NCBI RefSeq assembly: GCF_014842915.1
Contig: NZ_JACYXI010000007.1
Coordinates: forward strand, 186,001-250,000
Direction: 5' to 3'
Length of the DNA stretch: 64,000 nucleotides
Origin: Roseibium litorale
GTDB taxonomy: Bacteria; Pseudomonadota; Alphaproteobacteria; Rhizobiales; Stappiaceae
In this document: positions 26,651 to 50,274 of the stretch, piece after piece
How the letters are laid out: each line of letters opens with the position of its first letter
Numbering within the stretch: position 1 is the stretch's first letter
Program-made: the position numbers and the translations under genes
The notes under the pieces: generated by a model
Told to the model about the DNA's origin: nothing
What the model saw: the letters and a program-made list of their open reading frames with translations, nothing else
The model's database searches: none

Positions 26651-26679
26651 TCAGTGCCTTGTCTAATCAGCTCCGGAAA

Positions 26680-27141: not shown

Positions 27142-27229
27142 AAAATCCACTCTCACTAAACGCCCCTGTGCTTTAACGTTTAGAGCGGCCTATTCGGGCG
27201 GCAAGGCTGGCAGGAAGATATCCTGCGCC

Positions 27230-29424: not shown

Positions 29425-29545
29425 CCGTTCTTTCTAGTCCGCAGAACGCCGGAGGCCAAGCTTCACGGCATCCTGCCGCTTATCTTCCTTGTGCGCAGGT
29501 GCAAATGGGTCGCAGATCTCCGGAGTTTCGCGGTATAAGCCGAGC

Positions 29546-32191: not shown

Positions 32192-32214
32192 TCGGCCCAA
32201 TGATGATGGCCGCC

Positions 32215-32817
32215 CTAGCGCTCCACCGGTTCCCGCCAGCCGCGCATCGGAACGTCGGTCCGCTCGAATTTCCTGCGCTCCTTGATTTCCCGCGCCGGGT
32301 TCCCCGCATAGACCGTCCAGGGCTTGAGATCCTTGACCGCGACGCCGTGGGTCCCGAGAACAGCTCCATCACCCACCGTCACACCTGGCCCAACGAAGGC
32401 GTCCGCCGTGATCCAGGCATAGTCACCGATGGTGACCGGCGAGGTCATTAGTTGAAAGAATTCCCCATTGATGTCGTGAGTGCCGGTGCAGATATGCGCC
32501 CTCTTGGAAACCACAGCATATTTGCCGATCGTGATCCGCGCCATACAGTAGATGTCCGCGTGATCAGCAATCGCAGCAAAATCCTCAAGGACAAGGTTCC
32601 CCGGATACCAGATCCTGGCGGACGGGGCGACATAGACTCCCTTTCCGACTTTGGCACCGAATAGCCGCAGCAGGAACCTGCGCCAGCCGTGGAAGGGCTG
32701 CGTCCAGGACGCCAGCAGGCTCCAGACAAGCCCCCAGACCAGGCGCAGGACACGATGACGCCAGCCAAACCTGGGTTCGCTTTCAAAAACTCTTCCGGTT
32801 CCCACTGACACGTTCAT
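32215..32817 (-). CDS. WcaF-like hexapeptide-repeat acyltransferase
   Basis: A 200-residue left-handed beta-helix acyltransferase resembling colanic-acid acetyltransferase WcaF. Hexapeptide repeats run from about residue 55 to 170 (VGKGVYVAPSARIWYPGNLV, ITIGKYAVVSKRAHICTGTH, VTIGDYAWITADAFVGPGV). An acetyl-CoA-dependent O-acetylation of a sugar in the polysaccharide is the likely role. The N-terminal 45 residues are a hydrophobic helix-rich lead (VLRLVWGLVWSLLASW). It is divergent from the GT4 gene across 259 bases that presumably hold both promoters. Confidence 0.88.
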   Translation of the reverse strand: MNVSVGTGRVFESEPRFGWRHRVLRLVWGLVWSLLASWTQPFHGWRRFLLRLFGAKVGKGVYVAPSARIWYPGNLVLEDFAAIADHADIYCMARITIGKYAVVSKRAHICTGTHDINGEFFQLMTSPVTIGDYAWITADAFVGPGVTVGDGAVLGTHGVAVKDLKPWTVYAGNPAREIKERRKFERTDVPMRGWREPVER

Positions 32818-33076
32818 CCCTTTCGATATCCCCCTCTCGGCGCTTCCAGAGAACCCGGTGGCTTTTATCGCTCAGCCATCCGGAAAAATGCGGGCCTTCA
32901 TCCTTTTTTGAGAGGGAATGGTGGATCTTGAGTGAACAAACCGTCCTTACGTCATTTTTTTGTTTGTGAGGCCGTTTGGGATTTTGCGCCGGAGGCCGGC
33001 AGCATCCCAACCAGTGCTGGGTTATCCCGGTACAGACGGACCGCACATTAGAGACTCCCCGGAGAGAAGCCTTTCA

Positions 33077-35619: not shown

Positions 35620-35711
35620 CGGTTCCAGACAGACCGCAGCGGCATGTTAGGCTATAGGAATGATTCGCCGGCAGCCTGTGCCGGATCATCCATCGCCCAG
35701 GAGCCTGGCGG

Positions 35712-37022
35712 GTGACAGATCAAAGACTGACATTGGACCAGACAGCTGGCGGTTCCAAACGGGATCTGGCCGGATTTGTTCTGAGCTGGCTGCCAACACT
35801 GATGTTCGCTTATGCGATCCTGATAGCACCCATGATGATGCGGACCTCGGGCGGAGTGGATGACGGTGACATCAATATCGCCGCGTCAAAATCAAACGCA
35901 CTGAATCAGCTTTTCTGGCTCGGTCTTTTCAGTCTCGCGCTCCTGGCTTCCCTAAAGCGCCTGAACCGTCTTCCCGCCGTTTTGCTGCACCCGGTCGTGC
36001 TGGCGATTTTTGCCTATCTCGCCTTTTCCGGTCTTACCGTTTTCTGGTCTCCTGTGCCCGGCATTGCCTTCCGCCGGCTCGTGCTCCAGGTCATTCTTCT
36101 CTTGTGCTTCATCCTGTCCATTGGATTGGGAGACAGCCGGGAAGCTACGCTGAACCGTATGCTTGCTCTCGTGGTCCTGACCGTTGCCGTGAACTGTCTG
36201 GCTGTCGTGCTGATCCCGCCGACGCCGATCGGCTACGCCGGCATATATCCGCAGAAGAACGGCCTCGGGGCGGTCATGGCCTTTGTCATTCTGACCTGCC
36301 TCTATGGCATTACGGTCAAGAAAGGCCTGACCCGTTTTATTCTACTGGGAACAACCGGAGTTGCCTTCATCCTTCTGGTGATCAGTCAGTCCAAAACCTC
36401 TCTCGGACTCACGGTGCTGATCCCCCTCGTGGTCTATGTGTTTGTCGGACTGGCCTATCACTTGCGCGTCAACGCTTTCGTGCTCTTCCTGCTTCTGGCA
36501 TCCACAGGGCTTGTGCTGGCAGCATTTTTGTCTGCTCTCACCGGCTTCGGCCTGGATGAACTGTCGATGGTGCTATTCCACGACACCACATTTACCGGAC
36601 GGACGGTTATCTGGGACTTCGTTCTGGACGTGATTTCACGGTCCTGGCTGGGGGGGCAAGGCTATTCGTCCTTCTGGGGTGCGGGCGTGGACTCCATCGT
36701 TTTCCGTGAGGCTCCCAGCTTTGTGTCCCTGCTGCTACAGGCGCATAATGGCTATCTGGACGTTCTGGTGGAAACCGGTGTCATCGGGTTCTCTATCCTG
36801 ATGGTGCTCATTCTTCTGGCGTTACGCTCAGCAACCCAGCTCGTGCAAACAGACCGGCAGACAACGCGCCTTTGCCTGATGCTGATCCTGTTTGTCATCT
36901 GTCACAATCTTCTGGAAAGCAGCTGGTTCCGGAGCTTTTCGCAAATCTGGATGCTCTTCATCTTTGCGGCGCTTCTTCCACTTCTGCCTTCCGGAAAGGC
37001 CCCAGGTGACCAGAAGCCGTGA
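35712..37022 (+). CDS. O-antigen ligase/polymerase-like membrane protein (Wzy or ExoQ type)
   Basis: A 436-residue inner-membrane protein with about 11 transmembrane helices. The periplasmic-loop region contains TFTGRTVIWDFVLDVISRSW and LQAHNGYLDVLVETGVIGF, the conserved signature of the Wzy_C/O-antigen-ligase family (R and H in the catalytic loops). It probably polymerises repeat units in the periplasm. GTG 35712 is the start; the N-terminus is MTDQRLTLDQ. It sits between the GH5 gene and the chain-length regulator gene on the same strand. Confidence 0.9.
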   Translation: MTDQRLTLDQTAGGSKRDLAGFVLSWLPTLMFAYAILIAPMMMRTSGGVDDGDINIAASKSNALNQLFWLGLFSLALLASLKRLNRLPAVLLHPVVLAIFAYLAFSGLTVFWSPVPGIAFRRLVLQVILLLCFILSIGLGDSREATLNRMLALVVLTVAVNCLAVVLIPPTPIGYAGIYPQKNGLGAVMAFVILTCLYGITVKKGLTRFILLGTTGVAFILLVISQSKTSLGLTVLIPLVVYVFVGLAYHLRVNAFVLFLLLASTGLVLAAFLSALTGFGLDELSMVLFHDTTFTGRTVIWDFVLDVISRSWLGGQGYSSFWGAGVDSIVFREAPSFVSLLLQAHNGYLDVLVETGVIGFSILMVLILLALRSATQLVQTDRQTTRLCLMLILFVICHNLLESSWFRSFSQIWMLFIFAALLPLLPSGKAPGDQKP

Positions 37023-37120: not shown

Positions 37121-39373
37121 GTGGAGACTTCTTCAACCACTCCCCGCAAAGGGAATCAGAACCTGTTGGATGCCCTTGAACTTCTTGGCATTCTCCGGGC
37201 AAGGTTGAAGTTCATACTGCTGACTGCCGTCGTTTTCGTCGCCCTCAGCGCGGCCATTTCCTTGATTCTGACACCGGTTTTCACTGCGACGACGGCTGTG
37301 CTCGTCGACCCGACAGTCCAGCAGCCTTTTGACACTCAGCAGCAGTCCCGCAATCCCCTGGTCGACAGCCTGGCAATCGACAGCCAGGTCGCTGTAATCC
37401 GGTCCGCCGCGATCCTGCGTCCCGTCATCAGCTCCGAAAATCTTGTGAACGACCCGGAGTTCGGGACTGGTGGCACCTCCGGACTGGTTGGAATGATCCT
37501 GAAGGCGCTGCGTCCGGGACCAGAAGCCGCAGGTCAGCAGGCAGAGGATAAAACTCTGAAGGCCCTTGCGGAAGCCACCACGGTCAAACGGGACGGGCAG
37601 ACTTTCATTCTCACGATAGCGGTGGACTCCAAAGACCCGGCGAAAGCCGCCCGCCTGTCCCGTGCCATTGCGGACAGCTACCTGAGCGATCAAAGACGGC
37701 AGCTTGAGAATGCGTCCAACCACGTCACGAGCCAGATTGACGACAGGCTCATCGGCTTGCGCGAACGTCTGAGACTGGCTGAGGATAAGGTTCAGGAGTT
37801 CCGGGCGAAGAACAATCTTCAGGTTGCTGGAGAAGGCGGTCTCATCACCGAACAGGATCTGGCCGGCGTCAACACAAGCCTGATCGAAGCCCGCGCTGCC
37901 CTTGCGGCCGCAGAAGCAAAGAACGCCGAAATACAAAGACTTCTGCGCCAGGGCGTCGACGCGGAATCCATCAGCGACGCAGTCAATTCGCCGACGATTT
38001 CACGGCTGCGCGAGCAATATACCGAAGCGGCACGCAACGCCGCAAACTTGTCTGCCGATCTGCTGCCGTCCCACCCGACGCTGGTGCGGGCACGCTCCCA
38101 GCTTTCTCAGATCCAGCAGCTCATCCGCGATGAGGTCGCCCGGATTGGAGAATCCTCAAAGATCGAGCTCAAGGTTGCGAAAGATCGCGTCGCCAACCTG
38201 CAGAGGCAACTGGAAAGCACAAGAACGCTGAACAATGCGGACGATGCTGCCCGGATCCGTTTGAGAGAGCTGGAAACAGAAGCTGTCGCCACACGCACGC
38301 TTTACGAAAACGTTCTGGCCCGTTCCAAGCAGATTTCCGAACTTGATCAGGTTGTCATACCCGACGCACGCATCATTTCCCCTGCCGTGACGCCCGAAAG
38401 CCCAACCTGGCCGAAAAAGAAGCTTATTGTCGCTTTGTCTGCCGTTCTTGGCCTTCTCGTTGGCGCGTGCATTGCCATAGCAGGAACCGCGTTCCGGCTA
38501 TTGAAGGCCCGGCTCCTTGTGGAAGAGGCCGAAGAAGTTCCTCCAGCGCAAGCGCAGAGTGGGTCAACCCAGCCATCCCCCTCTCTGCCTCAAACTTCCG
38601 TCCCCGGACAATCGGCCAGAAAGTTGCCGGGCCGGTCTCCGCGCAACCAGCGCCTTGCCTCCTCTCTGACCACGCTGAGCCATATTCCCCGCCTCGCGAA
38701 CATGGCCTCCCGGCAAGACAGCGTTATCAGGCAAGGCGAGGAAGTCGAGGCCATCCGCCAGGCTCTCGATCTGTTCTACGCGGATCAGGCAGCCGGAAAA
38801 GACACAGAGTTCGGGCTGGCAATCGAAAAAATCCACGAGCGCATTGATCAGCTGGCAGAAGACAGTGATGCACGCGTGGCTCTGCTGACTTCTTCGGCAA
38901 CCGGCCAAGGACAGACAATGTCTGCCTTTGCCATCGCCTTCGCAGGCGCTTGCCGCGGACTGAAGGTGCTGCTGGTTGATGCTGACCCCTTGCAGAGGGA
39001 TCTCACCCGGGGACTGGACGGCACACCATCCCGGCGGCAGCAACCATTGGCCAACCGGGTTCGGGAAGACCGGGAGCTCGGTCTGTCCTTTGTGTCCCTC
39101 ATTGCAGGTCAACCGCGCCACAAGCCCTTCGAACTGAGTGGGCAGGCAACCCGCGAGCTGGCAGATATAGCGCGGGACCATGACCTGACAGTCATCGACG
39201 GGCCGCTTCTGCGCGACCTCTCCAGCGATGCCCCTCTCATCGCTGTTTCCGATTTGATCCTGGTGTCCCTCGCCGAAGAGACACAAAAAACCATCGCCGC
39301 GCAGGAGTTGGCTGATACGCTCGACAAATTGTCTGGCGACCGTCCGCACGCCCTCCTGATCACGGGCAGCTGA
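37121..39373 (+). CDS. Wzc/ExoP/GumC-like exopolysaccharide chain-length protein
   Basis: A 750-residue polysaccharide co-polymerase. The N-terminal Wzz domain has TM1 at about residues 30-50 (FILLTAVVFVALSAAISLIL), then a long periplasmic coiled coil (about 200-400: RLRLAEDKVQEFRAKNN, AKDRVANLQRQLESTR). The PxxP-like TM2 region follows (PESPTWPKKKLIVALSAVLG). The cytoplasmic ATPase domain (about 580-750) keeps the Walker A' VLLVDADP but its P-loop reads SSATGQGQTMSA, with Gln in place of the essential Lys. No C-terminal tyrosine cluster is seen. It is therefore probably not an active BY-kinase. GTG start. Confidence 0.9.
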   Translation: METSSTTPRKGNQNLLDALELLGILRARLKFILLTAVVFVALSAAISLILTPVFTATTAVLVDPTVQQPFDTQQQSRNPLVDSLAIDSQVAVIRSAAILRPVISSENLVNDPEFGTGGTSGLVGMILKALRPGPEAAGQQAEDKTLKALAEATTVKRDGQTFILTIAVDSKDPAKAARLSRAIADSYLSDQRRQLENASNHVTSQIDDRLIGLRERLRLAEDKVQEFRAKNNLQVAGEGGLITEQDLAGVNTSLIEARAALAAAEAKNAEIQRLLRQGVDAESISDAVNSPTISRLREQYTEAARNAANLSADLLPSHPTLVRARSQLSQIQQLIRDEVARIGESSKIELKVAKDRVANLQRQLESTRTLNNADDAARIRLRELETEAVATRTLYENVLARSKQISELDQVVIPDARIISPAVTPESPTWPKKKLIVALSAVLGLLVGACIAIAGTAFRLLKARLLVEEAEEVPPAQAQSGSTQPSPSLPQTSVPGQSARKLPGRSPRNQRLASSLTTLSHIPRLANMASRQDSVIRQGEEVEAIRQALDLFYADQAAGKDTEFGLAIEKIHERIDQLAEDSDARVALLTSSATGQGQTMSAFAIAFAGACRGLKVLLVDADPLQRDLTRGLDGTPSRRQQPLANRVREDRELGLSFVSLIAGQPRHKPFELSGQATRELADIARDHDLTVIDGPLLRDLSSDAPLIAVSDLILVSLAEETQKTIAAQELADTLDKLSGDRPHALLITGS

Positions 39374-39379
39374 TACGGT

Positions 39380-41137
39380 TCAACGTTTGGCAGCGCCGAA
39401 TCTGCCTGCGAACTCCAAAAGCTTCTCCGTGACGTCTGCCCTTGCCGGTAGAGGACTGAGATTGTGATCTGCCTCCGGGACCTTGGAGAAAGTCACATTC
39501 GGATAGGCTGAGAGTCCCGAAGCATCCGGACCGAACCAATCGGCGATTTCAAGAAGCCCACGGTCGCCTTCGCTATACACGAGAGCCACCGGCACATTCC
39601 GCTCCGCCAGCGTCTTCAACCGGGCGGAGACCACGCTTTTGAGGCGATGGTGACGGGAGAGGCGCCCGAGAAGCGGTGAAAGCTTCCTGTCGGCAGCGGT
39701 GGCGAGAGCGGCCGTCACCTTCCGGACCGCAGTAGAAACCGTAAGCTCTCCAGAAAGCAGCCGCTTGAACTGCTTCGGATCTGTCATCTTGCTGCGGTAG
39801 GTATCGAGGGTCTGAATGGGTTCCCGGATGGCCTGATCGACATCCTCATCCGGATCCCACACCAGCTTGCGGGAGTTGACCAGAAAGGCCCCCTCAATAC
39901 GTTCATCGAGGCCAGCCGACACAAAGGCCTGGTAGGCGCCGCTGCATCGCCCCGAAATCAGAACATGCGCGTCTCCCAAACGCTCTTTCATCCAGTCGAT
40001 AGCACAGCGGACATCATCACTCTGCCGGGTCGAATAGAGAACCTGCTCGCCTTGACCGGGCCAGTAGGGTGTCTCACCGATCCCCGCAAGGTCCATCCGC
40101 AGGACGGCATATCCGCGGGAAGCCATCTCGCGGGCAAGATCGACCGTGTATCTGCCCCAGCCGCAGGAATGGTCATAGCCAGCATTGAGGACCAGAATGG
40201 CTGTCCGGGCGGGAGCTGACGCCGGCTCTGTAAGCACGCAGAAAAACATGCCGCCAGGACCAAATCTGTGCTGGCTTTCCCGGTAGTCTGGTGTTTCCAG
40301 AACTGCTGGCACATCCGGCAGCTTCGTACCGGCAGAAGCATCCGCGTCCTGCGGGAAGTGCTCGCAGATCCAGGAGACAACCGCCTTGATTGGCCCCGTG
40401 GGAAGCCGCGAGAGCGTCGGGTTGGAGATGTAGTCGACATAGCCCTCGAAAGCACTGAGGTCGACCTGCCCGCCACCAGCGGCAAGATGCTCGGCCAGCT
40501 TCACATCGGCAGGGTTGCCCGGGCGTCCGACGACCAGACTTCTTTCGACCTTCGGCGCCTCGCTTTTCAGCAGATTGAGCCCCTTGATTTCAGTAAGGGT
40601 CTCCGCCGAGAGAACGAAGCCGCCAGCCATCATCCCGCCTTCCGGCCCATCGGAGGATCGCACGAGGAAAGTCGGCTGGGTCATGGCCGTCCAGGCCGCG
40701 ATCTCTCTCAAATGCGCCCGGCCCTGCGACACGCCTCCGAGATAAACAACGCCGGCAACATGCCGCTTGCGGGCCAGTTCGCCTGCAAAGAGACCGCCAA
40801 GGCCTTGACCGATCAGAATGACCCTGGAGGCAGATGAAAGCGTGATGAGCTGATCAAGGGCTGCCTCGGCAGCCTTTTGCCAAGCCTCGATATCCCGGAT
40901 CGCATCGCTGGCCAGAGCCGAGTGGCAGGTTCCCGGAAAATCGAACCGCAGACAGGGATATCCGGCTTCCGCGAGCTTTTCTCCCATGATCCGGAAGGTC
41001 TTGCGCGAACAGAGCTCTTCATAGGCCCATGGACTGAGCATGAGAACGGCGGTTGACCCCTTAGCGGCATGATACATACCGGCGAGACCATCAAAGAAGA
41101 TTGGGCAGGCAACTGACACTTTAGGGTCCTGGATCAC
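39380..41137 (-). CDS. tandem alpha/beta-hydrolase
   Basis: A 585-residue protein with two alpha/beta-hydrolase domains, at about 10-265 and 285-585. Both have the strand and oxyanion patterns of serine aminopeptidase-like hydrolases (VLMLSPWAYEELCSRKTFRI; ILVLNAGYDHSCGWGRYTVD). The nucleophile elbow of the first domain is GQGLG (110-114), with no Ser. That of the second is GRCSG (396-400), with Cys398 at the nucleophile position. Late Asp (EGDRG) and His (EADHNLSPL) of the triad are present in domain two. It may edit esters of the polysaccharide. GTG start; alone on its strand. Confidence 0.82.
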   Translation of the reverse strand: MIQDPKVSVACPIFFDGLAGMYHAAKGSTAVLMLSPWAYEELCSRKTFRIMGEKLAEAGYPCLRFDFPGTCHSALASDAIRDIEAWQKAAEAALDQLITLSSASRVILIGQGLGGLFAGELARKRHVAGVVYLGGVSQGRAHLREIAAWTAMTQPTFLVRSSDGPEGGMMAGGFVLSAETLTEIKGLNLLKSEAPKVERSLVVGRPGNPADVKLAEHLAAGGGQVDLSAFEGYVDYISNPTLSRLPTGPIKAVVSWICEHFPQDADASAGTKLPDVPAVLETPDYRESQHRFGPGGMFFCVLTEPASAPARTAILVLNAGYDHSCGWGRYTVDLAREMASRGYAVLRMDLAGIGETPYWPGQGEQVLYSTRQSDDVRCAIDWMKERLGDAHVLISGRCSGAYQAFVSAGLDERIEGAFLVNSRKLVWDPDEDVDQAIREPIQTLDTYRSKMTDPKQFKRLLSGELTVSTAVRKVTAALATAADRKLSPLLGRLSRHHRLKSVVSARLKTLAERNVPVALVYSEGDRGLLEIADWFGPDASGLSAYPNVTFSKVPEADHNLSPLPARADVTEKLLEFAGRFGAAKR

Positions 41138-41312: not shown

Positions 41313-42221
41313 TTGGAACGTGTCACGATCGCCATCGCCAGCATCGGCCGGCCCAGCATGGCGGAAACGCTTCGCTCGCTTGCCAGCATCAAAAAGGTAC
41401 CGGGCAAGACCCTTTCTGTTCTGATCGCGGATGACTCACCAGATGGCGCTGCAACCCGGCTTGTTGCCGGTCTCCGCCTGCCTGGGCTCGACGTTACCTG
41501 TCTTGCGGTCGCGTCAGGCAATATCTCGGTGGCCCGGAACGCTCTGCTTGATGAGACCACAGGCGAGTGGATCGTTTTCGTCGATGATGATGAGTGGGTC
41601 GAAGCCGATTGGCTTGAGCGGCTGTTTGCTTGCCAGCAAGAGTATTCTGCCGATGTCGTGATCGGTCCGGTGCATCCGGTTTATCCAGACCACGCTCCGG
41701 CTTGGCTCGTCCGCGCCAACCCGCTTTATGCGGATTGGGGGCACAGGGGAAAACGGCTTCTGACTGGAAGAGGCGGCAATACGCTCGCGAACATGACGTT
41801 CATCCGCCAATATGGTCTGCGTTTCGATCCGGAACTTGGGAGATCGGGCGGGGAGGACACGGCCTTTTTCGCCGAGGCCGCCACCTGCGGCGCGATCATC
41901 GTCGCGACAGACGACGCCATTGCCCGCGAGCATGTGCCTGAGGAGCGGCTGGATCCCGCTTATATCCTGCGGCGCGGCATCCGCTCCGGCCAGTCTTATG
42001 CGAACTCCCGCAAGGCTGATAATCCCGGCCTGCAATGGCGGCTCTTGTTTGGTGGCGATGCGTTGATCAAATGCGCCGTTGCGTTCACGCTTGCCTTGGT
42101 GTTCAGACCGTTCGACCGGGCCCGTTCCTTCCGCATGCAACAGAAACTGGCCCTGAACTTCGGCAAGATCCGCTCCGTTCTGAACCTGCCTCTGGCCCAG
42201 CTCTACGCGCCCCGCCCCTAA
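41313..42221 (+). CDS. family 2 glycosyltransferase
   Basis: A 302-residue GT-A enzyme. Nucleotide-sugar binding is indicated by VTIAIASIGRPSMAETLRSL and LIADDSPDGAA; the metal-binding motif is VDDDEWVEADW. A later block (RSGGEDTAFFAEAATCG) is typical of the acceptor side, with a C-terminal hydrophobic segment (LIKCAVAFTLALVF) that may attach it to the membrane. The start is TTG 41313, preceded by GGAAGGAG. Its stop codon overlaps by four bases that of the convergent deacetylase. Confidence 0.9.
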   Translation: MERVTIAIASIGRPSMAETLRSLASIKKVPGKTLSVLIADDSPDGAATRLVAGLRLPGLDVTCLAVASGNISVARNALLDETTGEWIVFVDDDEWVEADWLERLFACQQEYSADVVIGPVHPVYPDHAPAWLVRANPLYADWGHRGKRLLTGRGGNTLANMTFIRQYGLRFDPELGRSGGEDTAFFAEAATCGAIIVATDDAIAREHVPEERLDPAYILRRGIRSGQSYANSRKADNPGLQWRLLFGGDALIKCAVAFTLALVFRPFDRARSFRMQQKLALNFGKIRSVLNLPLAQLYAPRP

Positions 42222-42898
42222 ATCCGGTAACGAAGCCGCCGGAGTTGCGCATAGGCCGTGCCTTTCAGGATCTGTTTGAAAGACATGCGCGGCGGCAAAT
42301 CCCGTTCCGGCGAGAAGTCCTGCTGCACTGACCAGCGCGGACGGAACCAGGCGTCCCGGTACCCCATTCCCGAAGTGCTGGTTGAAACCTGAGAATAGCC
42401 TGCAGCCTTCAGGCTGGACAGGACAAGCGGATCAAAGGCTCCGAAAGGAATGGCCGCGGTCAGAACAGGGACGCCAGCCTCATCCTCGATCCTACGGCGC
42501 GCGTCGTGGAACTCCCGTTGCCGACCAGCCTCGTCAAGTTTGGTCCAGTCGATATGATCCCAGCCATGGCTGCCGATCTTCATTCCGCTTGCCACCATCT
42601 CGCGGATCTGTTCGCCGTTTAAGTATCCCTGCTGCCCGATCCGGCCCGCCAGAACAAAGAACTCACCACTTCGCCCCGCATCCAGAAGTGCCGGAACACC
42701 GGCTTCGTAGTCCGACAGGTTGCCATCATCGAAGGTCACCACCACACGGCATCCTGATTGCTGTTCCAGCTTGTCTAGGCAGGCAATCGTTCGCCGATAG
42801 GTTTCGACAGGGACAAAATACCGCCCCTCCCCTTCGCTCAAGGGAACGATTGGCTCCCCTATGCCGTGAAAGGTGATGGCAAGATTTGTGGTCAGCAT
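42218..42898 (-). CDS. polysaccharide deacetylase family protein (NodB-like)
   Basis: A 226-residue CE4-type enzyme. Motif 1 is VVVTFDDGNLSDYEAGVPAL, with the Asp-Asp catalytic/metal pair. Motif 2 is KIGSHGWDHIDWT, with the two metal histidines. A later block is PVLTAAIPFGAFDPLV. The family removes N- or O-acetyl groups from sugars; in this cluster the target is probably the nascent polysaccharide. ATG 42898 (MLTTNLAITFHG) is preceded by CAGGA; a TTG 60 bases upstream would add 20 residues with no family likeness. No signal peptide is seen. Confidence 0.88.
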   Translation of the reverse strand: MLTTNLAITFHGIGEPIVPLSEGEGRYFVPVETYRRTIACLDKLEQQSGCRVVVTFDDGNLSDYEAGVPALLDAGRSGEFFVLAGRIGQQGYLNGEQIREMVASGMKIGSHGWDHIDWTKLDEAGRQREFHDARRRIEDEAGVPVLTAAIPFGAFDPLVLSSLKAAGYSQVSTSTSGMGYRDAWFRPRWSVQQDFSPERDLPPRMSFKQILKGTAYAQLRRLRYRI

Positions 42899-43097
42899 GA
42901 AAAGGTCCTGAAAAAGGCTTGGCTCCCAATTCCAGGCACTCTGCCATGAAAAGTTCAACGGATAATGAGCGGAACCGCTCGCCAGGACGTCAATGAAATT
43001 AACCCCGGCGGAAGACCCTTGTGCTAAACCAAGCCCAATGATCTGACATTCCTAGACTGGCCGTTTCCACTCCCGGCCGGACCGAGCGGACGACTAT

Positions 43098-44387
43098 ATG
43101 CAATCCAATACACCCGGGAGCGTCCCGTCCAAGGTGAAGAACCTCATTGGACAGGCGCGCAAATCCAGCCTCGTTCGCAATACCTTGTCCTACACTGTGA
43201 ATTTTGGGCTTCAGCTCGTCATTCAACTGGCCTTCTTCATGCTGATCTCCCGGAACCTTGGTGCGGAAGGCTATGGCGTCTTCATCAGCATCACGAGCGC
43301 ATCGATCATAGCTGGATTCATTATCGGCCTGGGCAGTGAGTATCTTCTGGTCCAGCGTGTTGCCGTCGATCCTGACGCCTTCCCGCGCTACTTCGGCCAT
43401 GCCTTGATCATGATGGCTCTGACATTGCCGCTGGTCGCCATCCCCATGATTGTCTTCCTGCACTATCTGGTCGGAGACACGATCAGCCTGCTCCATCTGT
43501 CCGTCATCTCACTGACGGATCTGATCTTCACAAGGCTCGTTGTTCTGGCTGCGCAGGCCTACATGGCGTTCGATAAGGCAAACAAGCAGCTCTTCATCAA
43601 TGCCTTCATGGCGATTTCCAAACTCGTTTTCCTGATCGCAGCCACCAGTTTGAACAGCAAGCTGACGGTCTCTGACTGGACCTGGTGGTACTTTGCATCG
43701 GGATTGCTCTCCGCAATCGTCGCCATCGCTCTAGTCTTTCGTGACCTCGGGCGGCCAATCATGACCATTGTCCGGGAAGACCTGAGGCTCAGCAGCCTTT
43801 ACTGCGTCGAATTTCTCGCCATTGGCAGCATGAAGGATCTGGACAAGCCGGTTGTGGTGCACGCGATCGACGCCCATGCAGGCGGGCAATATGCGGCTGG
43901 CTTCCGCATCATCGATGCGGCCTCGGCACCAGTGCGCGCATTTCTCTATGCCACCTACACCCACCATTTCCGCCATGCAGAGGTCGGCAGGGAAAACAGC
44001 TACAGCTTTGCGCTGAAACTGCTGCCTGCTGCTGTTGGACTTGCTCTGCCAGTTGCCATTGGCCTGTTCGTGATTGCGGATTACATTCCGCTGGTGCTGG
44101 GCGAAGACTTTGCCGAAACGCCCAGTGTCATCAAGTGTCTGGCGTTCTATCCGCTGCTGATGGGCCTCTCCGGCATTGGCGCAGATCTCCTGCGCGCAAT
44201 CGGACATCAGAAAGTCCGTATGGCGCTCCTGATTTTCACCAGCCTGGCACTCGTCCCCGTTGTCTGGTTCGGCGCGATCATGGGTGGGCTTGTCGGCGCA
44301 GCCTTATTCCGCTTTGCCGTGCAATCGGCGCTGACCTTGCTGACCTGGGCCGCAATCCTCGTCTCAAGAAAGCGTAATGCGGCCTGA
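43098..44387 (+). CDS. Wzx-like polysaccharide flippase (MOP superfamily)
   Basis: A 429-residue protein with about 12 transmembrane helices. The N-terminus (SLVRNTLSYTVNFGLQLVIQ, FFMLISRNLGAEGYGVFISI) matches the polysaccharide synthesis/MATE-like exporter family. It translocates undecaprenyl-linked repeat units across the inner membrane for the Wzy-like polymerase encoded nearby. It lies convergent to the GH2 gene with a 20-base gap. Confidence 0.92.
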   Translation: MQSNTPGSVPSKVKNLIGQARKSSLVRNTLSYTVNFGLQLVIQLAFFMLISRNLGAEGYGVFISITSASIIAGFIIGLGSEYLLVQRVAVDPDAFPRYFGHALIMMALTLPLVAIPMIVFLHYLVGDTISLLHLSVISLTDLIFTRLVVLAAQAYMAFDKANKQLFINAFMAISKLVFLIAATSLNSKLTVSDWTWWYFASGLLSAIVAIALVFRDLGRPIMTIVREDLRLSSLYCVEFLAIGSMKDLDKPVVVHAIDAHAGGQYAAGFRIIDAASAPVRAFLYATYTHHFRHAEVGRENSYSFALKLLPAAVGLALPVAIGLFVIADYIPLVLGEDFAETPSVIKCLAFYPLLMGLSGIGADLLRAIGHQKVRMALLIFTSLALVPVVWFGAIMGGLVGAALFRFAVQSALTLLTWAAILVSRKRNAA

Positions 44388-44407: not shown

Positions 44408-46885
44408 CTACCCCCGGAAACTGATCTGGCTGTTTGACGAAACCGCACGGAGGATTCCGGCGGGCGCTCCATCGCTCTCCGTTTCTGGAACAAGGCGAAT
44501 GAGTTTCGGGGCGCCCGGGGCAATATGGAACCAGTTGTCCAAAGGCAGGAACCCTTCGACGTCCAGATGCACGAAGCGGGCAGTCCGGGCTGCGGTCAAG
44601 GTCAGCAACCAATCTGCGTCTTCGCCCTTTGCCAGATCCGCCTGAATGTCCAGCGGCTGACGTGCTGGATCAAAGCCTTGCGGGAAATGGAAGGCTTCGG
44701 ACAAGATCTCCCCCGTTGCCTCATCAACCAGCCGTGCCACGGTGACGTCATGGGCAGGCGGCCCGAAACGGTAGGCGTAGGCCGTATCGAAGAAGGCCCC
44801 GAAAAGATCCGTCGCCGCCACGTCCTGGCTGGAGTGCGGCCCGAGTTCAAACGCCCGTTTGCCCGAGACCACCGGCGTCATGCCATCGCGCAGACAGCTG
44901 ACCGTCAGAACAAGCTGACGTACCGCGGGCGTTTCGTTATGAAGATGGGCAAAGAGGCCGTTGGTGCCCTCATCGCTTAAGGTAACATTCAAAGGCCGGA
45001 AGGCGCGCCGCAGCGCATGCCAGGCCGGTTTCGGACAGCCCGTGGCGTCAATCACTCCCCAGCCTGCACCTGGGAGCAGGTCCTGAAAGGTCCAGACCAG
45101 CGCACCCCGGCAGGTGGACTGCGCCCGCCGCCATTCGCCAAAGGTCTGTTCCAGAATGTCCGCTGTAACCGCCCTGGACAGATCGAGATACCGGTCCGGA
45201 TCCCCATAGCGCAGCACGAGCGGATCGACGCCATACAGCGACTTCAGATAGTGATCGCGCACATCCTCAAAGTCCCATCCCGCGCCCCTGTCCCGTGGAA
45301 TCCGCGCCTTCCAGCGCGGATCATGACCAGGTTTCACGGGCAGATGCTTTTCCAACGTCCGGCTTTCCGGAACATTGGAGAAGGCCAGGCACTCGGCGGC
45401 AAAGCGGACTTCGGCACGCCGCGCATCCTCTAGCGGACGCAAATAGGCGCCAACGCCGTAGTAGTGGGCGACCCCTTCGTTCGGCGAGAAGGGCAATGCT
45501 CCGCCACAAGGCGAATTGGCTACATAGGGCACATCAGGACGGTAGGCTCCTGCTGCAACACGCAGAAGCTCCTCGCAAAGCGCACCTTTCCAGCGGCTTT
45601 CCGGCAGACCCATCATCGCGCCTTGCTGATAGATCTCGCTGCCCCCGCACAAAACCGCCAGGGACGGACACTCCTGCAACCGGGTCAGCTGCTGGCGGGC
45701 CTCTTCCTGCACGAGCGCCGCAAAAGCCTCATCCTGAACCGGATAGTCATAATTGGCGAACTGGAAGTCCTGCCAGACGAGGATTCCGAGTTCATCGCAG
45801 AGCTCGAAGAAGGCGCGGGTCTCATAGACCATCGTGCCGCCGATCCGCAGCATGTTCATTCCGGCAAGACGCGCCTTTTCCAGCAGCGGGCGGTAGGTTC
45901 CACTATCACCAGACAGACCAAGCAGATCGGCATTGGTCCAGACTGCACCCCGGCAAAACACGGACACATCGTTGATGGTCAGGCCGAAGCCCTTGCCATC
46001 GGCGCCTGTCTCCACCTCGATCCGGCGGAAGCCGGTGCGGCCCAGATCGATTTGGCAAGAACCCAAATACAGCTGAACCTCGTAGAGGTGAGGTGTCCCG
46101 TGCGTGTGGGGCATCCAGTGACGGACATCCGGAATTTCAAGCGTTCCCGCCCAGCGGCCTTCTTCGCTCTTTTCAAGCGTGAGACGCTGACCGCCACAAA
46201 CAAGACTGACTTCTCCCATCCAACCCTCAAGCAGGCCTGAGAAGGTCAGGTAGCCAACTCCGTCCCGACCCAGATTGGCCAGAAGCTCCAGTTGGGAGAG
46301 AGTGGGCTGCCCGGCCTCATGCAGGGTGATTGCCCGCCATGGGCCGACCGCATGGATTTCAGGGCACCAGCCCGGCATGTGGCCAAGAAGCGTGGTGCGG
46401 ACCAGTCGCAGGCCCTGGGACGCCGCCAGCTGCGGCCGCCAGCGGGCACGCGGCCCCTTGGCTTCCAAATAGGGTGCGAGGGCCCGGAAACAGATATCGA
46501 GACGGGACTGGGCCTTCAGATGAACAGGAAGCTCATGGCCTTCGAACATGCTCCCGGAGCTAAGGATCAGCGTGCCATCCAGATAGACTTCCGCGATGGT
46601 CGCCAGTCCTTCCAGAGACAGAACCTTGGCGCCCTCGCCGAAGCTGACGAGATCTGCCCGGTACCAGATGTCCTTGTCGTGCAGGCTTTCAGGCGCAAGC
46701 GGGTCATAGCGGCCGGCAGCCGCCAGAGCCGCGGCAGCTGTTCCCGGCGCAGTCGCCGGAACCCAGTCGTCAATAGCGCTCAGCGCCTCCGGCGTAACCA
46801 CCGCCCCCGCCGGTGTCACCGTCAGATGAAAGCGTGTGACGGGCTGACCGGGTGACGGACGCAAGGCGGGAAAGGAGTTCGGCAT
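44408..46885 (-). CDS. GH2 beta-mannosidase-like glycoside hydrolase
   Basis: An 825-residue GH2-type protein. The N-terminal sugar-binding sandwich has DKDIWYRADLV and EVYLDGTLILSSG. The TIM barrel includes MNMLRIGGTMVYE, FELCDELGILVWQDFQFANY, the acid/base region LAVLCGGSEIYQQGAM (canonical NE replaced by SE) and the nucleophile region VRFAAECLAFSN. It is the last gene of the ACP operon, 28 bases after the DUF1839 gene. No signal peptide is seen, so it may act on a cytoplasmic substrate, which is odd for a degradative enzyme. ATG 46885 chosen. Confidence 0.88.
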   Translation of the reverse strand: MPNSFPALRPSPGQPVTRFHLTVTPAGAVVTPEALSAIDDWVPATAPGTAAAALAAAGRYDPLAPESLHDKDIWYRADLVSFGEGAKVLSLEGLATIAEVYLDGTLILSSGSMFEGHELPVHLKAQSRLDICFRALAPYLEAKGPRARWRPQLAASQGLRLVRTTLLGHMPGWCPEIHAVGPWRAITLHEAGQPTLSQLELLANLGRDGVGYLTFSGLLEGWMGEVSLVCGGQRLTLEKSEEGRWAGTLEIPDVRHWMPHTHGTPHLYEVQLYLGSCQIDLGRTGFRRIEVETGADGKGFGLTINDVSVFCRGAVWTNADLLGLSGDSGTYRPLLEKARLAGMNMLRIGGTMVYETRAFFELCDELGILVWQDFQFANYDYPVQDEAFAALVQEEARQQLTRLQECPSLAVLCGGSEIYQQGAMMGLPESRWKGALCEELLRVAAGAYRPDVPYVANSPCGGALPFSPNEGVAHYYGVGAYLRPLEDARRAEVRFAAECLAFSNVPESRTLEKHLPVKPGHDPRWKARIPRDRGAGWDFEDVRDHYLKSLYGVDPLVLRYGDPDRYLDLSRAVTADILEQTFGEWRRAQSTCRGALVWTFQDLLPGAGWGVIDATGCPKPAWHALRRAFRPLNVTLSDEGTNGLFAHLHNETPAVRQLVLTVSCLRDGMTPVVSGKRAFELGPHSSQDVAATDLFGAFFDTAYAYRFGPPAHDVTVARLVDEATGEILSEAFHFPQGFDPARQPLDIQADLAKGEDADWLLTLTAARTARFVHLDVEGFLPLDNWFHIAPGAPKLIRLVPETESDGAPAGILRAVSSNSQISFRG

Positions 46886-46913
46886 GTCGGTCCGCTCTGG
46901 CAGGAAAAGGAAA

Positions 46914-47918
46914 TCAGGCTGCGCGGAGGCCCTGCGCCACCATATGCGCGTCAAGATCTGCCATCAAATCGTCCCATGCGCTGACGGCAGGGGCAAGCGC
47001 AGGCACGAGCTTGTCGAAAGATTTGCGCATGACCGCCCGGGCAAGCTGGAACTGCACCGACTTGCAGGTGGAGGAAATCAGACGGGCCTTTGCCGCAGCC
47101 TCTTCAAGACCGGCGACGCCGTTGCGGCCAAGCCAGTCCAGATGGGCACTGAAGAGCTCGAAATTCGCCCCAAGCTGTCTCAACGTGTTGAAGGCATAAA
47201 GATGGAAGAACTCGAAAGGGCGCTCGGAAATACTGGCGACCTGTTGCGGGAAGACCTCTGAGAACGCTGCAATCGGATTGCGCTCCGGCCGCTTGGCAAG
47301 ATGCGTCGCCAGCAGCGCGAGAGCCCGTTCCACGATGACGTTCTGCGCGGGCATTTTTTCCGGGAACTTCACGAACTCGGTATAAGGCAAGAACGGCAGC
47401 GGCTGGGCCTTATCACCTCTCTGGAAGACACCGTCGAAATCGTCACCTTCCAGATGATGAAGGCCAAGACCATGGAAGTAGTCCATGGAGCGGCCCTCGA
47501 TATCCAGCCGGTTGACGGCAACGGTCGTCTTGCCGTGGGCGCTGTGATAGCCGACGCCCTGAGTGTCCGGCAGATAGAAACTGTCGACTTCGACCAGGCT
47601 CAACCGGCCCCGCCCGATCTGGCCTGCCACATGGGTTTCCACCCGGTCGTAGATGGCAAGCTCGGTGACCCGCAGGCCATAAAGCGTTTCCAGATCTTCA
47701 AGCGGAACCTTGAAGAACGTGAACTGGTCCCCCTCGAAATCCTGGGTGACGGAATAGGCGAGACAAGCTTCAGGCGGCAGGCCAAGCGAGGGCAGCACCT
47801 CGATCCAAACGTCCAGATAGCAGTTCGTCTCTGGCCAATCCCGCTCCGCCGCATGCAGCGGATGACGCTTGTAATTGGCCGGATCCAGATCCGGAAAAAC
47901 GCGCTCGGTCATTGCCAT
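46914..47918 (-). CDS. DUF1839 family protein of the aminoacyl-carrier operon
   Basis: A 334-residue DUF1839 protein, a family found next to amino acid:[carrier protein] ligases. The N-terminal region has a conserved cysteine (ETNCYLDVWIE, Cys33) and a downstream histidine-rich part (GVGYHSAHGKTTVAVN, GLGLHHLEGDDFDG). This is a Cys/His layout like that of BtrH-type enzymes that transfer acyl groups from carrier proteins. Catalysis is inferred. The C-terminal part is helical (FEFFHLYAFNTLRQLGANFE). It starts 9 bases after the ligase gene stop and ends 28 bases before the GH2 gene. Confidence 0.85.
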   Translation of the reverse strand: MAMTERVFPDLDPANYKRHPLHAAERDWPETNCYLDVWIEVLPSLGLPPEACLAYSVTQDFEGDQFTFFKVPLEDLETLYGLRVTELAIYDRVETHVAGQIGRGRLSLVEVDSFYLPDTQGVGYHSAHGKTTVAVNRLDIEGRSMDYFHGLGLHHLEGDDFDGVFQRGDKAQPLPFLPYTEFVKFPEKMPAQNVIVERALALLATHLAKRPERNPIAAFSEVFPQQVASISERPFEFFHLYAFNTLRQLGANFELFSAHLDWLGRNGVAGLEEAAAKARLISSTCKSVQFQLARAVMRKSFDKLVPALAPAVSAWDDLMADLDAHMVAQGLRAA

Positions 47919-47927
47919 CCCTCTCCC

Positions 47928-48839
47928 TCAGCCCCAAAGCGCCTTGCGGACACCTTCCGGCCATTGTGCCGTGTCGAGCCCGTGATGGCGGAACAGGGCG
48001 AGAGCCAGACGTTCCAGCCCAAAACCAACACAGGCGGTGTGAGCGGGAGACCCATCGGACAAGGTGATGCCCCAGGCCTTGCCGAAATTGTCCATGTGAT
48101 AGTTGAAGCTCATGCAGGCGGTCGGGCCAGCCCCGTCATTGACGGGCACAAGCATCTCGAACTTCAGCTCCTGCTCACGCTGGCTTGCGCCCATCATGCG
48201 GCCTGCGCGCCCGAAGAAGGGATCGTTGGCCACATCTACCTCATGGGGAAGCTGCAACAGGTCCATGATTTCGCCGCCACGCCGCTTCCAGGTCTCCCGG
48301 AAGGCAATGGTCTGCTCCTGAGTGCCGACACGCACATATTCACGCTGGCGGAACATCTGCATCCGCGTCGGCTCCTTGGAAGGCTCGTGTCGGAAGCAGT
48401 AGGACTGTAGGGCGACATAGGCCCCCTCTTCCGGCAGGTTTCCACGCCGAGCCAGGATCGGATAAAGCGGATAACAAGCCGCAGGCGTCAGGGCGATGTC
48501 GGTGATTTTCTGGTTCTTTGTCCAGTCTTCCCCTGCCGCCATGCACTGGATCAGGCCCATATGGTCGTGATCATTGCCGCAGAAGGAATGCACCGTCCCC
48601 GCAAGCTGGGGAAAGTTCTTCATGTAGCCGCTGGTCTCGAAATCCGGAACCGGCATGCCGGGCGGGAAGACCATGGCCTCGGAGATTTCGTCCTTGCCAA
48701 GGCTGAGAGCCAGTTGCTCAAAGCGGGAGATCACATCTTCAAACACGGCGCTGCGGCCATAAAGGCCATCTACACCGCTGTCATAAAGAAGGCCCTGATC
48801 AAATAACTTGTCGAGAAAAGAAACGGGCGCGGTCATCAT
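47928..48839 (-). CDS. amino acid--[acyl-carrier-protein] ligase (seryl-tRNA-synthetase-like)
   Basis: A 303-residue class II synthetase core without a tRNA-binding arm. It matches the family shown in Bradyrhizobium and Agrobacterium to load Gly or Ala onto a carrier-protein phosphopantetheine. Motif 2 is [20 protein letters not shown] (148-167) and motif 3 is [12 protein letters not shown] (272-283). The three zinc ligands expected of the family are present: Cys122 (PAACYPLYP), Glu167 (FRQRE) and Cys270 (HTACVGFG). ATG 48839 directly abuts the stop of the ACAD-like gene, and its carrier protein is encoded two genes upstream. Confidence 0.94.
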
Positions 48840-50021
48840 TCATCCCAAAAGGCTGGTGTCTTGCTTATTGACCAGGAGCATCGTCGACGTATTGCCGAGA
48901 ATGCGGTCATTCGAAATCATCAGCTGGGCAGAGTGCGCATCGCGCAGGTGCCGTCCGAGGCTGTAGGGAGTGCCATTTTTGTAAGCGGAAATCCCGCAGA
49001 TCAGCATGCAGTGGTTGATGATCACCAGGATCATCTGGGACGTGCCTACCTTGATGTTGTTCATGGCCACAGAGAAACTCATGGCATTGAGCGCATCGGC
49101 ATTGCCCTTGGCTGCTTCAAACTGCTTGAGCCCCGCCACCACGTTGGCCTTGACCTGCTGCAGCAGATTGGAAGCTTCTGCCAGACGCAATGCACCCGGA
49201 GGAGTTTGTCCCGGCATCTTGCGTGCAGCCGCACGGACGAAGGCCTGAGACCGGGCGACCGCATCTGCTGCGATCCCATACCAGAGCGCGCCCCACAGAA
49301 GGTGAGACACGGCCAGCATCGACTGGGCCGCGATTTCTGCGAAAGGCCGCGGCAGGATCTGTTCTGCCGGACATTCCCCGCGGAAAATATAGCCATCGGA
49401 GCAGGTGCCACGCATGCCCAGTGTGTCCCAAACGGACGTCCGTTCAAGCGTATATTGCTCTTTCAGGAAGAGGGTTGCGACCTGATCAGGGTGCGGTGCC
49501 TCGGCGTTGCGCCGGGAGGTGACCATAATGGCATCTGCCGCGGCCCCATAGGAAATGACCGTGGCGTCTTTGGTGAGACGGGCGATGGGACCATCCACTT
49601 CGATCGCGCAGATCGAATTCCGCAGGTTGCCACCAATTCCAGCCTCACTCGTCGCGGAAGCAACCAGCAGCTGCTCGTCACAGATCCGCTTCAGGAAAGC
49701 TTCGTGCCAGGCGCTGCCCACGGCGTAGTCGGCCAGGCTGGCAATCTGGATCTGGTGCATGGCGTAGGTCATCGCGGTCGCCGCGCAGGACTGGCCGAGG
49801 ATTGCACAGACATCCGCGACCTGGGTCAGCGTGGCAGATTCACCGCCAAGCTCGGGCCGGATCATGACACCCATCAACCGCTCAGCCTTGACCGCTTCCA
49901 TGCCTTCTGCGGGGAAACGGCCTTCGGCATCAACGCGATCAGCGAATTCAGCAGCGACCTTCGCCGCGCGGCGTGCGCGCTCCGCAAGGTCCATAGCTGC
50001 AACCTGGGCTGGGGCGTTCAT
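48840..50021 (-). CDS. acyl-CoA-dehydrogenase-fold flavoprotein acting with a carrier protein
   Basis: A 393-residue ACAD-fold protein. The N-terminal helical domain (GRFPAEGMEAVKAERLMGVM) and beta-domain (LVASATSEAGIGGNLRNS, LTKDATVISYGAAADAIMV) are normal. The C-terminus (GRHLRDAHSAQLMISNDRIL) resembles the type-2 C-terminal domain of flavin-dependent monooxygenases (HsaA/DszC-like). The usual Glu base in a YEGT-like motif is not evident. It probably acts on an aminoacyl-S-carrier made by the adjacent ligase, either oxidising or hydroxylating it. ATG 50021 begins MNAPAQVAAMDLAER, 1 base after the ACP stop. Confidence 0.88.
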   Translation of the reverse strand: MNAPAQVAAMDLAERARRAAKVAAEFADRVDAEGRFPAEGMEAVKAERLMGVMIRPELGGESATLTQVADVCAILGQSCAATAMTYAMHQIQIASLADYAVGSAWHEAFLKRICDEQLLVASATSEAGIGGNLRNSICAIEVDGPIARLTKDATVISYGAAADAIMVTSRRNAEAPHPDQVATLFLKEQYTLERTSVWDTLGMRGTCSDGYIFRGECPAEQILPRPFAEIAAQSMLAVSHLLWGALWYGIAADAVARSQAFVRAAARKMPGQTPPGALRLAEASNLLQQVKANVVAGLKQFEAAKGNADALNAMSFSVAMNNIKVGTSQMILVIINHCMLICGISAYKNGTPYSLGRHLRDAHSAQLMISNDRILGNTSTMLLVNKQDTSLLG

Positions 50022-50022
50022 C

Positions 50023-50274
50023 TCAAGCCACCTGACGGTCTTTGGTAATATCTGCCAGGGCTTCGGCGATCGCCGAGATGGAAGAGAATGTTTTGCGGTT
50101 GAGATAGGCTTCCGGGAATTCGATATCGAACTCTTCCTCAAGAGCGAGCATCAGCTGAACGGAAGCAAAAGAAGAAAGCCCTGCCTCGTAAAGATCGGCG
50201 GTATCAGCCAGCTGATCGGCAGCCACCGGTAGCCCACCGTGCTTCGACAGCAATTCGCGAATAGTATCGTTCAT
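50023..50274 (-). CDS. acyl carrier protein of the amino acid ligase system
   Basis: An 83-residue carrier protein. Alignment with ordinary ACP (LMLALEEEFDIEFP is nearly identical to the E. coli-type helix) places the phosphopantetheine serine at Ser35 in YEAGLSSFASVQLM. The DSL motif is replaced by SSF, as in carriers of the amino-acid:carrier-protein ligases. It heads a five-gene minus-strand operon. ATG 50274 has GAGGGA upstream. It is distinct from the fatty-acid AcpP. Confidence 0.93.
   Translation of the reverse strand: MNDTIRELLSKHGGLPVAADQLADTADLYEAGLSSFASVQLMLALEEEFDIEFPEAYLNRKTFSSISAIAEALADITKDRQVA

Follow-up and report, generated by a model that had tools for sequence, protein, structure and literature searches.

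What does a bacterium make with an amino acid that a relative of seryl-tRNA synthetase (SerRS) has placed on a carrier protein? SerRS-like carrier ligases became known in 2010; a 2022 review (PMC9437257), whose table gives Gly, Ala, and also Ser as substrates of the relatives, still calls their biological role unknown. The question is raised again by a 64,000-nucleotide stretch of Roseibium litorale (contig NZ_JACYXI010000007.1, positions 186,001 to 250,000; hereafter the window), in which such a ligase is encoded in a minus-strand operon with an aminoacyl carrier protein (ACP), a flavoprotein of the acyl-CoA dehydrogenase (ACAD) fold, a DUF1839 protein, and a glycosidase of glycoside hydrolase family 2 (GH2). 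Here we argue that these genes encode a real, conserved pathway, one of a predicted but undemonstrated kind. The reading we favor, with a probability of about 0.5, is that an amino acid is joined by an amide bond to an amino sugar on its way to a surface glycan; the pathway would work on aminoacyl-carrier protein in the cytosol, through an order of steps that we infer, and in Roseibium its product would feed the adjacent Wzx/Wzy polysaccharide.

The operon and its conservation

The five genes, each with an ATG start, are separated by gaps of 1, 0, 9, and 28 bases, and a check of open reading frames (ORFs) and codons found the coordinates, strand, and gaps of an earlier note on this DNA to be exact. 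In the order of transcription, the minus strand encodes the ACP (50274-50023; 83 residues, PP-binding domain, NF005480, with the phosphopantetheine serine at position 35), the flavoprotein (50021-48840; 393 residues, PF02771 or Acyl-CoA_dh_N, without the conserved catalytic Glu at its usual position), the SerRS-like amino acid:[carrier protein] ligase (48839-47928; 303 residues, NF005479), the DUF1839 protein (47918-46914; 334 residues, PF08893, a predicted carrier-protein-dependent amide synthase with C33, T131, and H149), and the beta-mannosidase-like GH2 protein (46885-44408; PF22666 or Glyco_hydro_2_N2), whose pair of catalytic Glu residues is intact. For the last gene the ORF finder had taken a TTG start at 46954, upstream of the ATG at 46885, and its residues E440 and E521 are numbered from that TTG. 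A sixth partner is proposed here that the earlier five-gene account left out: HYD, a duplicated alpha/beta hydrolase on the same strand (39380-41137), with TIGR03101-like and TIGR03100-like halves that score below cut-off.

Conservation was followed by an alignment scan for DUF1839, which gave at least 570 relatives; the best 80 were kept, so this sample leans to close relatives, and the core genes were counted by tblastn. Many genomes of the samples seem to be the same strains (L175 and L018, for example), and the counts are thus not independent. The closest relative locus among these best 80 is that of Roseibium suaedae (Stappiaceae), with 93% identity in DUF1839. The order and strand of ACP, flavoprotein, ligase, DUF1839, and GH2 are kept in 72 of the 75 full-length loci, and the other three, all from Roseibium, lack the ligase only. 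All five genes are likewise present in 18 of 20 DUF1839 loci drawn from genomes of five families—the two exceptions are L136, in which GH2 was not detectable, and L151, a second copy close to a contig end—and in 13 of 15 further loci of the window's own family, the ligase being absent in two. The gene set recurs in Betaproteobacteria, and 10 of 11 fetched plasmid loci are complete: those of Rhizobium gallicum, Azospirillum lipoferum, A. argentinense, Azospirillum sp. B510, Caballeronia, Mycetohabitans, Cupriavidus metallidurans, Phyllobacterium, R. rhizoryzae, and Methylobacterium. A Rhizobium leguminosarum plasmid (L198, 8462-10468) carries an apparently decayed operon near transposase and nonribosomal peptide synthetase genes; its ligase and GH2 genes are partial, and those for ACP and flavoprotein are absent.

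The linkage of the five genes is not due to chance. DUF1839 itself is sparse: it was found in 51 of the 87 family genomes, in 5 of 385 at class level, and in 16 of 398 at phylum level. Among the family genomes, 47 have DUF1839 together with a ligase over the cut-off, four have DUF1839 only, none has the ligase only, and 36 have neither; a few other family genomes give weak, sub-threshold matches. Each of the 16 DUF1839 genomes in the phylum sample has the ligase as well, and in a further 12 a ligase over the cut-off occurs with no DUF1839. The Fisher values for this co-occurrence disregard the relatedness of the genomes. DUF1839 is thus nearly always accompanied by the ligase, while the ligase is also found without it.

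Predicted charging of the carrier protein

The ligase passes the score of its curated family (NF005479, 483.3 bits against a cut-off of 357) and matches the Bll0957 structures at 2e-85; C122, E167, and C270, which we take to be the Zn ligands of the SerRS-like core and which were placed by counting in the alignment, are each present in 116 of 116 homologues. The ACP likewise passes its curated score (NF005480, 117.5 bits against 72), has 4H2W chain C and 2JQ4 (Atu2571) as its best PDB matches, and keeps Ser35 in all 116 homologues. By analogy with the Bll0957-type amino acid:[carrier protein] ligases, with which the operon shares both curated families, the Zn-ligand residues, and the phosphopantetheine serine, the ligase would adenylate a small amino acid (Gly or Ala) and load it onto the ACP.

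The operon differs from such systems in what accompanies the ligase: a locus that reads as Bradyrhizobium-like (L156) has ligase and flavoprotein with no DUF1839 or GH2. Among five ligase loci without DUF1839, the flavoprotein is present in three (L156, L158, and L159). No alternative transferase was found beside three of the five, among 10 proteins whose ORF choice is doubtful in the high-GC loci.

The converse case is seen in five Roseibium-like loci (L018, L029, L042, L173, and L175; genomes G031, G038, G051, and G059), which keep ACP, flavoprotein, DUF1839, and GH2 and have no SerRS-like ligase; R. denhamense is one of the ligase-less strains. In the five ligase-less loci the ACP serine and the DUF1839 triad are intact. 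In these strains the carrier must be loaded by something else.

DUF1839 as a predicted amide synthase

The central claim concerns the DUF1839 protein, which is assigned to its family with 430 bits against a gathering score of 22.5 and whose AlphaFold2 model is confident (pLDDT 93.2). Compared with solved structures, the model fits CcbD over nearly the whole chain (Z 20.1, root-mean-square deviation 3.5 over 291 residues), followed by a chain of the AziU2-U3 complex (Z 18.6) and CtaG (Z 16.7), with the next unrelated match at Z 8.9. The role of transferase that had been suggested for DUF1839 is supported by these predicted folds. According to work on CcbD (PMC12945683), that enzyme transfers proline from the carrier to its own Cys and from there to the amine of a thiooctose in a Cys-His-Glu ping-pong reaction, holding the carrier by a patch of Arg residues.

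The candidate active site of DUF1839 is nearly invariant when the best copy of each locus is counted: C33 in 116 of 117, T131 in 115 of 117 (with one further Ser), and H149 in all 117. The order Cys-His-acid is not the one found, as Thr131 and His149 stand where BtrH_N proteins have His and Asp; this exchange was judged by strand borders and spacing—Thr131 at the start of a strand, His149 at the end of the next—rather than by superposition. Among the papers searched, one mentions DUF1839 or PF08893. An earlier description (PMC10318531) treats DUF1839 as papain-like with a C(T/S)H triad, states the exchange, and guesses at glycan processing; the spacing of Cys33, Thr131, and His149 agrees with that published triad. 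On a C-terminal helix K286, R294, and R298 are conserved, and they recall the carrier-holding patch of CcbD, a likeness that is suggestive only.

Taken by analogy, DUF1839 would accept the aminoacyl group on Cys33 and pass it to an amine in a CcbD-like ping-pong reaction, and the acceptor would most likely be an amino sugar of a nucleotide-sugar or lipid-linked glycan precursor. With CcbD/LmbD, CtaG, AziU2-U3, and BtrH the protein shares a papain-like domain, a helical bundle, and, as predicted, a carrier-protein donor, and for CcbD and BtrH the acceptor is an amino sugar or aminoglycoside. It differs from the CcbD- and BtrH-type proteins in the reverse order of His and Thr, in the lack of a detectable sequence relation to the BtrH type, and in having no lincosamide-like pathway around it.

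Polysaccharide context

The second part of our reading, that the coupled sugar is destined for a surface glycan, comes from the neighborhood. The operon had been described as lying directly beside polysaccharide genes. Its neighbors on one side are a Wzx-like flippase gene, convergent with GH2 (43098-44387, plus strand, PF01943), a polysaccharide deacetylase gene (42218-42958, minus strand, PF01522, scanned as 42218-42895), and a GT2 glycosyltransferase gene (41313-42221, plus strand, PF00535). Beyond HYD follow a Wzc/Wzz-like chain-length gene (37121-39373, plus strand, PF02706 and PF13807) and the remaining island (31382-37022), with genes for Wzy (35712), a GH5 protein (34303), a GT4 glycosyltransferase (32960), a hexapeptide transferase (32215), and a WecG-type glycosyltransferase (31382). 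The hexapeptide acyltransferase, about 11 kb off, does not adjoin the operon.

To see how far this context is shared, genes for GT2, GT4, Wzx, Wzz/Wzc, Wzy, and deacetylase proteins were counted within 10 kb of each locus; the seeds came partly from the same loci, which they favor, and miss other kinds, such as a GT9 gene in L099. Loci shorter than 18 kb were left out (five of the 80, and also L143, L150, and L151), L171 (14.4 kb) was kept, and the plasmid loci measured 25 to 29 kb. Such genes occur in 18 of the 19 loci nearest the window (L016-L033 and L095; mostly Stappiaceae, including Oricola of the Ahrensiaceae and unplaced metagenome-assembled genomes), in 22 of the 56 other full-length loci, which are mostly Rhizobiaceae, and in none of 20 control stretches from the same genomes, a small and arbitrary set. 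They are found in 16 of 17 further loci of the window's family. Elsewhere we use family labels, taking f1 as Stappiaceae, f175 as Rhizobiaceae, and f216 as Burkholderiaceae by likeness to plasmid loci: the counts are 3 of 6 for f175, 1 of 3 for f2, 2 of 3 for f216, and 0 of 3 for f69, with 0 of 4 plasmid loci and 0 of 5 ligase loci without DUF1839.

The genes involved are not the same everywhere. In f216, L153 has a bacterial sugar transferase, a ManC-type protein, and Wzc, and L149 has Wzy and Wzc; in f2, L148 has a Wzz neighbor. The association is therefore seen again in separate lineages, each with its own set of polysaccharide genes, yet the operon also stands alone. The polysaccharide link is therefore real but lineage-dependent: it is repeated near the window (18 of 19) and in f216 against none of the controls, but it is not obligatory, as the 22 of 56 other loci, f69, and the plasmids attest. 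Whether the genes mostly lie far from polysaccharide genes in relatives, the point on which the earlier note had staked its inference, accordingly has an outcome that differs by lineage.

Several observations weigh against an amide coupling that serves a surface glycan. Of the 56 other full-length loci, 34 have none of the counted polysaccharide genes within 10 kb and 24 have no HYD within the same distance; one plasmid copy, that of Rhizobium gallicum, follows nif genes. Four genomes of the window's genus group (G031, G038, G051, and G059) have DUF1839 and no ligase-family match. Alignment of DUF1839 with seven BtrH_N proteins gave an hhalign probability of 2.3 (E 0.02), which is no sequence link, so the transferase role rests on the predicted fold. 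Finally, in two f216 genomes the DUF1839 copy of the operon lacks the catalytic Cys, each genome having a second, intact copy. Cupriavidus metallidurans likewise has a second DUF1839 gene apart from its operon (for these cases together: L150, 9577-10500; L153, 7201-8181 and 12032-13252; L197), and a paired DUF1839 pseudo-enzyme is possible.

The first alternative takes up the same facts: the operon might make a small, diffusible aminoacyl-sugar metabolite—a signal, a metallophore, or an antibiotic-like compound—to which the polysaccharide neighborhood would be secondary. Stand-alone operons are common, with no glycosyltransferase or Wzx gene listed for A. lipoferum, Azospirillum sp. B510, Caballeronia, Phyllobacterium, R. 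rhizoryzae, or R. gallicum in PLSDB gene tables that are themselves incomplete, and the 34 loci just mentioned point the same way. Transporter genes (MFS and ABC) lie within a few kb in several stand-alone loci, and we take the CtaG and AziU proteins to belong to secreted-metabolite pathways. CcbD belongs to one as well (PMC12945683). However, the table of neighbor families holds no single transporter or resistance gene that accompanies the core, the recurrent neighbors near the window and in f216 are polymer genes against none in the 20 controls, and the A. argentinense operon has a GT9 glycosyltransferase gene and a sulfotransferase gene about 5 to 8 kb upstream, outside the seed set. We therefore judge a diffusible product unlikely and keep the surface glycan as the preferred destination.

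The flavoprotein

Between charging and transfer, the ACAD-fold flavoprotein would oxidize the aminoacyl group bound to the ACP. Its AlphaFold2 model (pLDDT 90.6) has the ACAD fold, with Z 41.8 to ACADSB. The catalytic Glu of acyl-CoA dehydrogenases is not conserved, reaching at most 5 of 57 sequences at any column of 355-393 in a motif alignment; the alternative helix position for that Glu falls, by counting, on Ser239, and Glu229 (46 of 57) is ten residues off. If Gly is the substrate, no alpha,beta double bond is possible, and oxidation at the amine or at C-alpha becomes more likely.

The same protein could instead act on the amino sugar, as an N-oxygenase like KijD3 or DnmZ, leaving the ACP-bound amino acid untouched. 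Among solved structures, the closest in sequence are 3M9V (KijD3) and the nitrososynthase 3MXL, both weak matches at about 1e-10; KijD3 and DnmZ are among the many similar fold matches, and the missing dehydrogenase Glu agrees with such a role. But the fold search matches dehydrogenases and monooxygenases alike, with true dehydrogenases, the acyl-ACP dehydrogenase TcsD, and ColB1, which oxidizes a carrier-bound cysteine, fitting equally well. Moreover, three loci that have neither DUF1839 nor GH2 (L156, L158, and L159, with an ACP-like gene in the first two) keep the flavoprotein together with the ligase. Oxidation of the sugar thus seems rather improbable, and the ACP-bound aminoacyl group is the substrate that we would expect.

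HYD and exosortase-type modules

The proposed sixth partner, HYD, lies within 10 kb in 16 of the 19 loci nearest the window, in 32 of the 56 other full-length loci, and in 14 of 17 further window-family loci, against 0 of 20 controls; by family the counts are 5 of 6 (f175), 2 of 3 (f2), 1 of 3 (f216), and 2 of 3 (f69), with 2 of 4 plasmid loci and 2 of 5 ligase-only loci. In A. lipoferum, A. argentinense, Azospirillum sp. B510, and Mycetohabitans the gene next after GH2 is a HYD homologue, and in Phyllobacterium and R. rhizoryzae the homologue and GH2 are convergent. In the C-terminal half, Cys398 is found in 78 of 80 homologues, and an Asp and His558 are conserved; the nucleophile place of the N-terminal half holds Ser in only 2 of 80. 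As a Cys alpha/beta hydrolase, HYD could perform a second acyl transfer or edit a mis-loaded carrier.

A stronger role is conceivable, in which the last transfer falls to HYD, which would form an ester with a sugar hydroxyl in the manner of Cys-type alpha/beta acyltransferases, and DUF1839 would do no more than move or edit the aminoacyl group. This would account for the conserved Cys, Asp, and His, and in two loci that lack DUF1839 (L157 and L160) HYD does accompany the ligase and an ACP-like gene. Yet DUF1839 occurs without HYD within 10 kb in the 24 loci noted above, and its CcbD-like fold points to amide synthesis; we regard the ester route as markedly improbable and leave the transfer with DUF1839.

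The two halves are related to exosortase-A hydrolase 2 and hydrolase 1 but fall under the curated scores (97.8 against 168.45 for hydrolase 1, and 65.2 against 202.75 for hydrolase 2). Four loci around hydrolase 1 genes that do pass the cut-off were compared, with the following over-cut-off labels: hydrolase 2 and a pyridoxal phosphate (PLP) decarboxylase in L222, hydrolase 2 and an AMP ligase in L223, an AMP ligase in L224, and a ligase and decarboxylase in L225. ACP-like proteins occur in L222 and L223, and amino-acid adenylation domains are among the runner-up matches of the ligases; read by eye, L224 also seems to have an ACP-like gene, and both L224 and L225 Wzz-like genes. The motif GLCDG is present in two of six hydrolase 1-type proteins, a pattern that left the nucleophile of the other four unplaced.

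Like the window's operon, the exosortase-A-associated genes (TIGR03098-TIGR03101) combine an ACP-like protein with an ATP-dependent ligase and paired alpha/beta hydrolases. A carrier protein with such hydrolases may thus be a wider theme, and the exosortase-type module may be a parallel of the operon. The differences are plain: those modules have an AMP-forming ligase, a PLP decarboxylase, and separate hydrolases, whereas the operon has a SerRS-like ligase, flavoprotein, DUF1839, and GH2, with the two hydrolases fused. It is tempting to join all of this—DUF1839 as a CcbD-fold amide synthase with an exchanged triad, attaching oxidized Gly or Ala to the amino sugar of an export-ready glycan as the first end product of SerRS-derived carrier ligases, and an ACP/Cys-hydrolase core held in common with exosortase modules, so that two unrelated activation chemistries would lead to one kind of polysaccharide decoration. 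We offer the joint claim tentatively; that it holds in all its parts is somewhat doubtful.

The glycosidase and the probable cellular location

The GH2 protein matches 5N6U (1e-45), and E440 and E521 are both present in 115 of 115 homologues. It has GGSE where the mannosidase 2VJX has GNNE, and Ser replaces the Asn before the acid/base Glu in 114 of 115; judged from sequence, this substitution may reflect a sugar altered at C2. The enzyme would remove or remodel a beta-linked sugar before export. For the trimming or proofreading function suggested earlier, nothing was found beyond the two intact catalytic Glu residues. That the whole system merely hydrolyzes or recycles, with DUF1839 a peptidase or thioesterase, GH2 catabolic, and no new bond made, would suit a glycosidase and the papain-like fold described in PMC10318531, but is highly improbable given a ligase gene beside DUF1839 in 47 of 51 family genomes and closest DUF1839 folds that are carrier-dependent transferases, not peptidases.

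A crude test of the first 60 residues found a hydrophobic N-terminal stretch in 0 of 115 GH2, 0 of 117 DUF1839, 0 of 119 flavoprotein, and 0 of 116 ligase sequences, and in 3 of 80 HYD homologues. With no signal-like N-termini, the enzymes probably work in the cytosol, before export by Wzx. This location would separate the operon from the Dlt system, which D-alanylates teichoic acids: there, too, a ligase and a carrier protein supply an aminoacyl thioester to a surface polymer, but the ligase fold is another, and the operon's transfer would take place in the cytosol and, if CcbD is a guide, onto an amine. A Dlt-like membrane transfer was considered and rejected, as GH2, DUF1839, flavoprotein, and ligase have no membrane or signal stretch in those 60 residues; no gene labeled DltB or DltD appears in the annotated plasmid loci, whose gene tables are incomplete.

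Relation to earlier work

The chemistry proposed here is not new. A note added in proofs to a 2010 paper (PMC2922099) predicts that an uncharacterized ORF (Atu2574) joins an amino acid through an amide bond to the amine of a surface sugar, with redox modification of the aminoacyl group. That StRS system shares with the window's operon a SerRS paralogue, an ACP, a redox enzyme, a conserved uncharacterized ORF, a glycosidase, liposaccharide genes, and the same proposed chemistry, and its defining set, linkage of the first five, is found in the operon. Gene order suggests that Atu2574 is a DUF1839 protein. The 2010 note calls the redox enzyme Rossmann-fold, against the ACAD fold found here, and it gives neither a structural relative of the ORF nor a hydrolase partner nor counts. 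The inference in the earlier note, that an aminoacyl group is passed to the polysaccharide or a sugar precursor, is therefore a rediscovery: the DUF1839 fold and the polysaccharide link give it partial support, but it dates from 2010. The present analysis adds a structural argument for the role of DUF1839, a sixth partner with exosortase-type relatives, the lack of the usual dehydrogenase Glu, a probable site of action in the cytosol, and context counts that differ by lineage.

The structural evidence makes the 2010 prediction directly testable. If DUF1839 is an amide synthase, the route can be reconstituted with purified proteins, and one can look for the modified sugar in a named polymer. 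If the reading is true, amino acids would have a further way onto Gram-negative surface glycans, by an aminoacyl thioester, and a function would be suggested for a Pfam domain of unknown function and for exosortase-associated hydrolases.

Surroundings of the operon

The flank opposite the polysaccharide island reads as housekeeping (ptsN, hpf, rpoN, and lptB) when the translations are taken by eye only. Between the operon and the upstream gene there is a terminator-like hairpin (50642-50610, minus strand) by pattern match only, and the pattern found three sites against 6.6 expected in shuffles. Comparison with PHROGs gave nothing useful.

Upstream of the ACP, lineages differ. Rhizobiaceae-type loci have genes for EpmA (EF-P lysine aminoacylase) and a lysine-2,3-aminomutase-like protein on the same strand, in clusters of 41 and 43 loci of which representatives alone were scanned (L061, 5154-6218; L066, 6222-7274); an operon extending into these genes was considered and rejected as lineage-specific. 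Many Stappiaceae-type loci have a conserved upstream group of PTPS-like, zinc-dehydrogenase-like, GT4, and methyltransferase genes, as if for a glycosylated pterin (L029, 5442-5867; L042, 7283-8233; L170, 3745-4821; L171, 2582-3658). On the nif-bearing plasmid of R. gallicum the operon comes directly after an annotated exopolysaccharide production repressor (L096, 9319-9492). In the window itself, cobalamin biosynthesis genes (CbiD, CbiJ, methylases, and a CobB-like protein; 25831-31400) border the polysaccharide island.

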